The notes under the pieces are model-generated. The model was not told the DNA's origin. It saw only the letters and a list, made by a program, of their open reading frames with translations, and searched no databases. From positions 1 through 64,000 of the forward strand of contig JAUJPG010000011.1 in NCBI GenBank assembly GCA_030447245.1: 64,000 bases of DNA. The letters run 5' to 3'. The DNA is from Chloroflexota bacterium (GTDB taxonomy: Bacteria > Chloroflexota > UBA6077 > JACCZL01). Both the position numbers and the translations under genes were made by a program. Below, piece by piece: positions 1-3,518 of the stretch; positions within the stretch are counted from its first letter, which is position 1, and each line of letters opens with the position of its first letter.

Positions 1-666
1 TTCCCCGAGCGCCTGGGTGATGAGCGGGTCATCGTCGGACGCGACGACCTCCAGGCGGGTGGGCGCCTGCGAGGTGAAGGCACGGATGTCGGCGTAGCGG
101 TCCAGCTGCTCCGCTTCGTCGAGCAGCCCGGTGACGGTGCGCGCCGTCTCTCGCCGCACCCTGTACGCCAGCGAGCCGGCGTCCGGGTTGCCGTCGAGTG
201 CAACGACACGGTCACCACGCCAAGAGGCGAACGTGTGGCCGAGCATCAGCGTCGTGGTGGTCTTGCCGACCCCGCCCTTGCGCGACAGCACCACGATCCG
301 ACGTGAACCCCTGACCGGCGCCTTGACCCGAGCGGCCAGGATCTCTCCTAGCACGGCGGCGCGGATGTCGCCGCGAGCGTCGAGGACGAGCACCTCGTCG
401 GGTCCCATGGTCTCGACCGCCTCTCGCTGCGGGTGGTCTGGATTGCCCAGCGACTCGAAGGTGTCGAGGTCCTCGCGGGCCGGGACGTAGCGGACCGTTA
501 CGGCCTGGCCGACCATCACCTGGCTCGCATCCAACGGTGCCACGCCGGTCATAAAACTGTGGCGGATGCCGAGCCTGAAGAGCTCGGAGGTGACCGACGC
601 GGTGCTCGCCGCCCGCAACAGGTCAAGCGTCCCATCCGGCAACGGCTCCAACCCGTTGACGAGCAT
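1..666 (-). CDS. RraA-like half-domain fused to ParA/MinD-type P-loop ATPase (partial)
   Basis: One uninterrupted frame from ATG at 664-666 runs off the window edge (222 residues visible). Residues 1 to about 112 read as the N-terminal half of an RraA-family protein: STASVTSELFRLGIR, GVAPLDASQVMVGQAVTVRY, then VLVLDARGD and LGEILAAR. The second half of that fold (the RGxxGxVxDGxxRD region) is absent. From about residue 114 the chain becomes a ParA/MinD-like ATPase with Walker A RKGGVGKTTTT (residues 129-139) and the switch region ALDGNPDAGS (157-166). A GGAGGG Shine-Dalgarno lies 5 nt before the ATG and a good promoter lies upstream, so the composite looks expressed. ParA-type ATPases act in partitioning or secretion; RraA proteins are aldolases or RNase E regulators. 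The function of the fusion is unknown, and an assembly chimera is possible. Confidence 0.8.
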   Translation of the reverse strand, partial: MLVNGLEPLPDGTLDLLRAASTASVTSELFRLGIRHSFMTGVAPLDASQVMVGQAVTVRYVPAREDLDTFESLGNPDHPQREAVETMGPDEVLVLDARGDIRAAVLGEILAARVKAPVRGSRRIVVLSRKGGVGKTTTTLMLGHTFASWRGDRVVALDGNPDAGSLAYRVRRETARTVTGLLDEAEQLDRYADIRAFTSQAPTRLEVVASDDDPLITQALGE

Positions 667-708
667 CGCGTCCCTCCACCCCGCGGCCAAGCGCCGACGT
701 TCGGCCCG

Positions 709-781: not shown

Positions 782-787
782 TATACT
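782..787 (+). promoter_or_regulatory. Extended -10 box upstream of fabF
   Basis: TATACT (one mismatch to TATAAT) lies 53 nt before the fabF ATG. No convincing -35 element at 16-18 nt is visible, so the assignment rests on the -10 box and on its position in the divergent intergenic region. Confidence 0.4.
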
Positions 788-840
788 TGCAATTCACTGC
801 TCCGGTCGCTCTGATGACCGTGCGGTTCAGGGGGCAGAAG

Positions 841-2082
841 ATGAGTACGCGGGTCGTGGTCACAGGCCTGGGGTGTATCTCGCCGCTCGGTCACGACGTG
901 GCATCTACCTGGGACGGTTTGATCGCGGGGCGATCCGGCGCCGCACCGATCACGGCGTTTGACGCGAGCGAGTACGACACGCGTATCGCTGCTGAGGTCA
1001 AGGACTTCGACCCGACTCGCCACTTTAGCGCCAAAGAGGCCCGTCGCATGGACCGCTTTGTCCAGCTTGGCCTGGTAGCCGCCCACGAAGCCTGGAAGGA
1101 TGCGAACATCCAGGTCGACGGGCCAGCCGCCGAGCGGGCTGGCGTGATCGGCGGCTCCGGGATTGGTGGCATCGGCACGCTATCCCAGCAGTTCGAGGTG
1201 CTCCACACCAAGGGCCCGGGTCGAATCAGCCCCTTTCTCATTCCGATGATGATCGTCGACATGCTGGCGGGACAGATTGCGATGACGTTCGGGCTCCGGG
1301 GTCCGAACTGGGGGTTAGCCTCAGCGTGCTCAACGGGCAATCACGCCATTGGCGAGGCAGCCGAGATCATCCGTCGCGAGGATGCAGACGTCATGGTCGC
1401 CGGCGGCAGCGACTGTGGCATCTATCCGATAGGCGTGGCCTCATTCTCGTCGATGAAGGCACTGTCGACCTGCAACGATCAGCCTGAAAAGGCGAGTCGA
1501 CCATTTGACGCACAGCGCGACGGCTTCGTCCTCGGAGAAGGCGGCGCGATGCTGGTGCTCGAGTCGCTAGAGCACGCCCGTGAGCGGGGGGCGAGGATTC
1601 ATGCGGAGCTCGTGGGCTACGGGGCGACCGACGACGCCTTCCACATGACCGCGCCCTGCGCGGATGGCGACGGCCTAGCGCGCTCGATGCAGATGGCTCT
1701 GCGGAAAGCTGGGCTTGGGCCACGTGACGTCGACTACATCAACGCACACGGGACGTCGACGCCGCTCAACGATCTGGCCGAGAGCGAAGCGATCAAGGCG
1801 GTGTTCGGCGCCGCTGCCTACGACGTGCCGGTCAGTTCGACGAAGTCGATGACCGGCCACATGATGGGTGCGGGGGGAGCCGCCGAGGCTATTGCCTGCA
1901 TCAAGGCAATCCAGGAAGACCTGATTCCGCCCACGATCAACTACGAGTACCCGGACCCGGCCTGTGATCTGGACTACGTGCCGAATGAGGCTCGCAAACG
2001 GAACGTCGAGGTTGCGCTCTCCAACTCGGCCGGCTTCGGCGGCCACAACAGCACTCTCCTGATCGCCCAGTTCAGGGGCTGA
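841..2082 (+). CDS. fabF: Beta-ketoacyl-ACP synthase II
   Basis: Elongating condensing enzyme of type II fatty-acid synthesis; condenses malonyl-ACP with acyl-ACP in the cytoplasm. At 413 residues the length is that of FabF. The catalytic triad falls at the same numbers as in E. coli FabF: Cys163 (SACSTGNHA), His303 (NAHGTSTPLND) and His340 (TKSMTGHMMGAGG). The frame is open 54 nt further upstream, but ATG at 841 is chosen because AGGGGG sits 7-12 nt before it and the protein then begins MSTRVVVTGLG as is usual. First gene of a tight fabF-accB-fabH operon; accB starts 3 nt after its stop. Confidence 0.96.
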   Translation: MSTRVVVTGLGCISPLGHDVASTWDGLIAGRSGAAPITAFDASEYDTRIAAEVKDFDPTRHFSAKEARRMDRFVQLGLVAAHEAWKDANIQVDGPAAERAGVIGGSGIGGIGTLSQQFEVLHTKGPGRISPFLIPMMIVDMLAGQIAMTFGLRGPNWGLASACSTGNHAIGEAAEIIRREDADVMVAGGSDCGIYPIGVASFSSMKALSTCNDQPEKASRPFDAQRDGFVLGEGGAMLVLESLEHARERGARIHAELVGYGATDDAFHMTAPCADGDGLARSMQMALRKAGLGPRDVDYINAHGTSTPLNDLAESEAIKAVFGAAAYDVPVSSTKSMTGHMMGAGGAAEAIACIKAIQEDLIPPTINYEYPDPACDLDYVPNEARKRNVEVALSNSAGFGGHNSTLLIAQFRG

Positions 2083-2085
2083 TCG

Positions 2086-2529
2086 ATGTCGGGTGTAGAG
2101 TGGCTCGAGCAGGTGAAGCGTGCCCTGCATCACATCCGCGGCAGCGATGCGACCGAAGTCGAAGTGAGCCAGCCTGGACTCCGATTGCGGGTCCGCCGCA
2201 CACTCGCCGTGGCGCGAGCGGCGGAGGTGGACGTGGGTGGCGCGGTCGCTCCGAGCGCGGGTACGACGATTGTTGCGCCGCTCACAGGCATCTTCTATCG
2301 TGCGTCGTCGCCGGCGACGCAGCCGCACGTGGTCGAGGGGGATCCCGTCCAGCCGGACACCGTAGTTGGGCTGATCGAGGCGATGAAGATCTTCAATGAG
2401 GTGCTCGCCGAACGACGCGGCCGAGTCCGGGAGATCTTGGTGCAAGGCGGCGAGTTGGTCCAGGCGGGCGATCGGCTGATGTTGATCGACGAAGCGGTCG
2501 AGGTCAACCCCGGACTGGGGCTGCGGTGA
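2086..2529 (+). CDS. accB: Biotin carboxyl carrier protein of acetyl-CoA carboxylase
   Basis: Carries biotin between the carboxylase and carboxyltransferase halves of acetyl-CoA carboxylase, supplying malonyl-CoA. At 147 residues it has the usual AccB length: an N-terminal helix, a linker, and a C-terminal biotinyl domain with IEAMKIFNEV, in which Lys101 is the biotinylation site. Between fabF and fabH, overlapping fabH by 4 nt (GTGA). No biotin carboxylase (accC) follows, so the partner subunits must be encoded elsewhere. Confidence 0.95.
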   Translation: MSGVEWLEQVKRALHHIRGSDATEVEVSQPGLRLRVRRTLAVARAAEVDVGGAVAPSAGTTIVAPLTGIFYRASSPATQPHVVEGDPVQPDTVVGLIEAMKIFNEVLAERRGRVREILVQGGELVQAGDRLMLIDEAVEVNPGLGLR

Positions 2530-3518
2530 GTGAGTTGACCGTCCGCATCGCTGGGTGGGGCAAGTACCTGCCCGCGCGGGTGATGGACAACCACGAGATC
2601 GAGCGGCTGGTCGATACTTCGGACGAGTGGATTCGCGCCCGCAGTGGCATCGTGGAGCGGCGGATTGCCGCGGACGACGAGACCACCTGCAGCATGTCGG
2701 TGGCCTCCGCAAGACCGGCGCTCGACATGGCAGGCGTTGACCCGCTCGACCTCGAGTTGATTATCGTCGCCACCGGCACGCCAGACCACCCGGGGTTCCC
2801 GGCCACAGGGTCGCTGGTGCAGCAGGCGCTCGGTGCCACGCGCGCCGGCGCCTTCGACGTCGGCGCGGGTTGCGGGGCCTTTGGCTACGGACTGGTCGCC
2901 GGCGCCCAGTTTGTCCTGAGCGGCGCCCACCGCAACGTGCTCGTCGTCGGCGCGGACGTCATGTCGCGCGTCATCGACTGGCGAGACCGCTCGACCTGCG
3001 TGCTATTCGGCGACGGCGCGGGCGCGGTGGTCCTCCAGGCCAGCGACACGCTGGGCGGCCTTCGGTCATTCGTACTCGGCTCGGACGGCTGCGGCGCGCC
3101 ACGTCTGTACATCCCGGCAGGTGGCAGCCGCCAGCCCGCAAGCCACGATTCGGTCGAGAACGGAGCCCACTACCTGAAGATGGACGGGCGCGATGTCTAC
3201 CGTTTCGCTACTCGAGTCATTCCGGAGTCGATCCTCGGAGCGTTGGTCAAGGCCGGCCTGGCCCCGCGCGACCTCGACTTGCTCATTCCGCACCAGGCAA
3301 ATAGCCGAATCATCGAGCACGCGCGCAAGAAGTTGGAGCTTCCCCCCGAGCGAGTATTCGTCAACGTCGACAAGTACGGCAACACGTCGTCCGCGTCGAT
3401 TCCGGTGGCGTTGTGCGAGGCACTCGAGCAGGGCCGGATCGCACGTGGAGACATCATAGGCATGTGCGCGTTCGGGGCCGGTCTGTGCTGGGCGGCAGCG
3501 ATCTGGGAGTGGAACTAG
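2526..3518 (+). CDS. fabH: Beta-ketoacyl-ACP synthase III
   Basis: Initiates fatty-acid synthesis by condensing an acyl-CoA primer with malonyl-ACP. At 330 residues it has the FabH Cys-His-Asn triad: Cys116 (DVGAGCGAFGYGL), His256 (LIPHQANSRI) and Asn286 (VDKYGNTSSASIP). The GTG start overlaps the accB stop in a GTGA, implying translational coupling. Substrate preference (straight or branched primer) cannot be read from the motifs. Last gene of the operon. Confidence 0.95.
   Translation: MSELTVRIAGWGKYLPARVMDNHEIERLVDTSDEWIRARSGIVERRIAADDETTCSMSVASARPALDMAGVDPLDLELIIVATGTPDHPGFPATGSLVQQALGATRAGAFDVGAGCGAFGYGLVAGAQFVLSGAHRNVLVVGADVMSRVIDWRDRSTCVLFGDGAGAVVLQASDTLGGLRSFVLGSDGCGAPRLYIPAGGSRQPASHDSVENGAHYLKMDGRDVYRFATRVIPESILGALVKAGLAPRDLDLLIPHQANSRIIEHARKKLELPPERVFVNVDKYGNTSSASIPVALCEALEQGRIARGDIIGMCAFGAGLCWAAAIWEWN

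Follow-up and report, generated by a model that had tools for sequence, protein, structure and literature searches.

The reading frame that opens contig C76 of a Chloroflexota draft genome, in which the front half of an RraA-like aldolase runs directly into a MinD/ParA-type P-loop ATPase, is very probably an assembly chimera formed at the contig end and not a new protein, judging from sequence comparison with relatives of each half. The window analysed here is the whole stretch of 64,000 nucleotides from the start of that contig, so that base 1 of the window is also base 1 of C76 (G000:C76, 133,984 bp). The genome to which it is assigned (the host, below) is a draft assembly of 131 contigs with a completeness of 90.2% and a contamination of 4.2%. 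If true, the fusion would be a new combination of a metabolic enzyme fold with a positioning ATPase. The case also carries a caution, in that about 20 shared bases can create a plausible in-frame fusion at a contig end, and artefacts of this kind are exposed by a check of the contig end together with synteny in relatives. The features discussed are collected in Table 1.

Table 1. Features at and around the join, in window coordinates.
Feature	Position	Strand	Basis
MinD/ParA-type ATPase domain start, Walker A SRKGGVGKTTT	1..339	-	80-81% identity, profile match, contig start
Junction stretch LAARVKA, CTGGCCGCTCGGGTCAAGGCG, residues 110-116	319..339	-	in-frame reading possible for both families; profile overlap
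RraA-like aldolase N-terminal part, residues 1-116	319..666	-	identity to relatives, tree, synteny, NF006093
Shine-Dalgarno-like GGAGGG	within 667..690	-	5 bases before ATG 666; sequence
FabF-type (KAS II) ketosynthase gene, syntenic anchor	841..2082 (ATG 841; ORF tool start 787)	+	same rraA neighbour in G001, G002

A frame truncated by the contig edge

On the minus strand the translated frame is open throughout, from the ATG at 666 to base 1, and encodes the RraA-like N-terminal half (residues 1-116) followed by the MinD/ParA P-loop ATPase (residues 110-222). The sequence-only reading had described a single uninterrupted frame with its own promoter and ribosome site. The frame is indeed uninterrupted, but its end at base 1 is a truncation by the edge of C76, and it lacks a stop codon because the contig ends there. 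The ribosome site could likewise be located (GGAGGG), but the promoter could not, as no consensus sigma-70 promoter was found at threshold in 600-900. The ATG at 666 agrees with the start of the homologue in genome G001 ('MLIEGLEPLP'), and the TTG start at 690 given by the ORF tool lies upstream of GGAGGG. A quick look at the opposite end of C76 revealed ordinary open frames.

The assignment of an RraA domain followed by a ParA/MinD domain was borne out both by Pfam and by family profiles built here. The RraA-like domain PF03737 was matched with an E value of 3.9e-11, but only over positions 1-83 of the 152 in the profile, and the P-loop that follows the RraA part was recognised as CbiA/AAA_31 (PF01656, E 1.2e-8; PF13614, E 1.6e-6). 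Our RraA profile aligned to residues 4-125 with 157.9 bits, fading after residue 116, and our ParA profile to residues 110-222 with 236.6 bits; the RraA half also matched NCBIfam NF006093 (PRK08245-like) with an E value of 6.5e-32. Measured against the RraA-like aldolase family as a whole (PF03737; NF006093/PRK08245), residues 1-116 of the fusion align to family relatives without a gap and at an identity of up to 78-79%, but the fusion then stops at profile position 83, without the GAAGxVTDGAxRD segment and the C-terminal half. The cut falls just ahead of this conserved segment (G-x-x-G-x-V-x-D-G-x-x-R-D), which the relatives keep and in place of which P-loop sequence stands in the fusion; the absence of the C-terminal half of RraA, remarked on in the sequence-only reading, thus holds. 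The solved structure nearest to the RraA relative in G001 is 5x15.

The ATPase half carries the deviant Walker A motif of the ParA/MinD family, KGGVGKT, within SRKGGVGKTTT (SRKGGVGKTTTTLMLGHTFA). It shares this motif and the residues next to it with a group of Pro-rich-leader MinD/ParA ATPases from Actinomycetota and Dormibacteria, with 80-81% identity to proteins of Egibacteraceae and Nitriliruptorales. It differs from them in that RraA sequence replaces the leader with its (G)WRR...GPS motif ahead of the P-loop, and in that the C-terminal half of the domain lies past the contig end. Searched against PDB sequences, the ParA half gave no match at E 0.001.

Differing affinities of the two halves

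Up to residue 116 the closest matches to the RraA half are found in two genomes of the host's family, with 78% identity in G002 (G002:C999) and 66% in G001 (G001:C113), and in a phylogenetic tree the RraA half groups with these relatives with support of 97/93. In the window, G001 and G002 alike (3/3) rraA is divergently paired with a FabF-type ketosynthase gene, and in G001 the rraA gene at this same syntenic place is complete. The G002 gene (L004, G002:C999 1-60) likewise breaks off where its contig ends, some 19 residues beyond the point at which the window switches, and is of RraA type up to there. By tree and synteny, then, the RraA half is native to the host.

Divergently from rraA, the window carries genes for the FabF-type (KAS II) enzyme, a biotinyl/lipoyl carrier-like protein and a KAS III-type enzyme in succession (787-3518), and FabF and KAS III types likewise adjoin rraA in G001. 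A SelA/DgaE-like PLP enzyme gene overlaps and follows the complete rraA of G001 (L062, G001:C113, 9323-11562). This gene was considered as a second synteny anchor and rejected, the host homologue (56%) being located inside C106 by a PEP carboxykinase-like gene with no rraA remnant adjoining.

The ATPase half has other relations. When 84,980 named genomes were scanned, 24 relatives emerged, the best of which belong to Egibacteraceae and Nitriliruptorales in the Actinomycetota, with 81% identity in L047 (Egibacteraceae) and 80% in L030 and L031. Within the host phylum, close versions occur in family f19 (G345, 65%; G032, 55%; G242, 42%), and family f31 has a weaker one (G071, 48%); no ParA of the window's type was found in the 15 other genomes of the host order. 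The G345 sequence is identical to that of a Dormibacterota MAG over the stretch that corresponds to the ParA half, which points to a host phylum that takes in Dormibacteria, probably Chloroflexota in GTDB terms. In the ParA tree, few branches of which are well supported, the nearest sequences by path length are those of Actinomycetota (L047, L030, L031, L032 and L033), the exact position of the ParA half having low support; the host phylum's own versions (L084/G345 and L006/G032) form a separate Dormibacteria-type group with support of 80/89. The ParA half therefore looks foreign and of actinobacterial type on these comparisons. Codon usage and GC3 were also tried as a means of separating the two halves and set aside, both halves being alike and both fitting the host (GC3 of 0.87 and 0.87, at the 78th and 81st percentile among fragments of the host); this comparison is a weak discriminator, candidate donor DNA being GC-rich too.

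In the place taken by RraA in the window, each of the 18 ParA frames read (L030-L047) carries a leader that is rich in Pro or otherwise unrelated and that in most cases contains the (G)WRR...GPS motif. Together with L084, these sequences make up an Actinomycetota and Dormibacteria MinD/ParA family in which the leader is long and Pro-rich and the (G)WRR...GPS motif ahead of the P-loop is conserved. L032 and L033 additionally show a long hydrophobic, membrane-like region upstream in the same open frame as ParA.

The junction and its distribution

The sequence-only reading had placed the switch at about residue 113, within an Ala-Arg-Val-Lys-Ala-like stretch at about 325-340. The shared stretch stands, and its position is corrected to that given in Table 1: the fusion has ParA character only below 319 and RraA character only above 339. 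RraA relatives read GEILMARIKA or GNILAARIKA here (GEILMARIKAVGGAG / GNILAARIKARGAAG) and ParA relatives QLVARVKAP or AMAARVRAP (RRQLVARVKAPVSGSRRI / AMAARVRAPVSGSRRI). The residues allowed by both families permit at most 21 identical bases, the parental DNA itself not having been found, and the reading frame is preserved across the join.

We searched for the same layout among 61 relatives, the order's 16 genomes, a sample of up to 400 genomes from the phylum (with the best seven candidates per genome scored) and ten ParA-bearing genomes, and the window itself was the one confident match to span the junction. RraA matches give out by about residue 126 of the query (222 residues), except that two weaker paralogues (G025, G009) align a little beyond it, and ParA-type matches begin at about residues 99-117. 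Weak, loose alignments across the junction, such as those in G010:C110 (28%, E 7e-5) and G026:C12 (27%, E 2e-5), belong to long frames that resemble other P-loop proteins. Viral contigs yielded no match to the exact 33-base pattern of the junction. On the other contigs of the host genome, searches for the remainder of ParA and for the C-terminal half of RraA returned only unrelated paralogues; since both remainders are missing, their absence does not separate an artefact from recombination. In homologues, RraA is complete and the ATPase stands apart from it, which is the arrangement that the sequence-only reading had named as the one that would count against a genuine fusion.

Origin of the join

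Three explanations had been offered from the sequence: a novel combination of domains, a recombination event at a short region of similarity, and an assembly chimera. A functional protein, in which half an RraA fold would form the N-terminal module in front of a ParA/MinD ATPase within a genuine single gene, is the least likely of the three and in our view highly improbable, because the RraA part is severed right before a segment that its relatives keep and the usual leader of the ATPase is missing. What speaks for it is a frame that is open and preceded by a ribosome site, but that frame is cut short by the contig end, and no homologue of the same layout occurs in the searched genomes. With the relative's rraA complete in the same place, ParA leaders that differ in every frame read, and a junction absent from the searched genomes, the new combination was not upheld. 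Real recombination, by which an acquired actinobacterial-type parA fragment would have joined the host rraA at a short shared stretch to leave a chimeric and probably non-functional gene, is the chief alternative to a chimera and is likewise unlikely, if less so. It would accommodate the frame maintained through the join and the host-compatible codon usage of both halves, and a short shared stretch could serve illegitimate recombination too; against it, the contig ends just ~340 bases from the join, the rest of the ParA gene was not found in the host genome (about 10% of which is, however, missing), and the junction is absent from all relatives searched.

The evidence favours an assembly chimera, in view of the contig end, the two differing affinities and a syntenic relative whose RraA is complete, together with a switch point that both families can read and the lack of a second instance in the genomes searched. 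Under this explanation, C76 would be host DNA as far as the middle of the rraA-like gene, at which point the assembler would have stepped, via a short identical stretch (at most 21 bases, encoding LAARVKA), into the ParA/MinD gene of another organism, probably a member of the Actinomycetota from the same sample. The path would have run about 320 bases into that gene and then stopped. The rraA gene of the host probably continues to full length, and the ATPase probably belongs to a gene apart that begins with a Pro-rich leader. This one step accounts for the contig end, for halves of unlike affinity and for a join placed in sequence that both genes can share. The halves differ in taxonomic affinity by both trees and searches, the ParA placement being weakly supported, and the join lies some 320-340 bases from the end of C76. 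Points that count against a chimera are the preserved frame, the host-like codon usage and GC3, the low tree support for the ParA half and the rarity of misassemblies in MAGs, where those within contigs are relatively rare compared with mis-binning (PMC8201837). Assemblers based on k-mers can yield paths that are not real sequence, and in a mock-community test chimeric sequences were always located at contig ends (PMC8172020). What the window has in common with such chimeric metagenome contig ends (PMC8172020; PMC8201837) is the DNA of what appear to be two organisms, joined at the end of a contig through sequence that the two may share.
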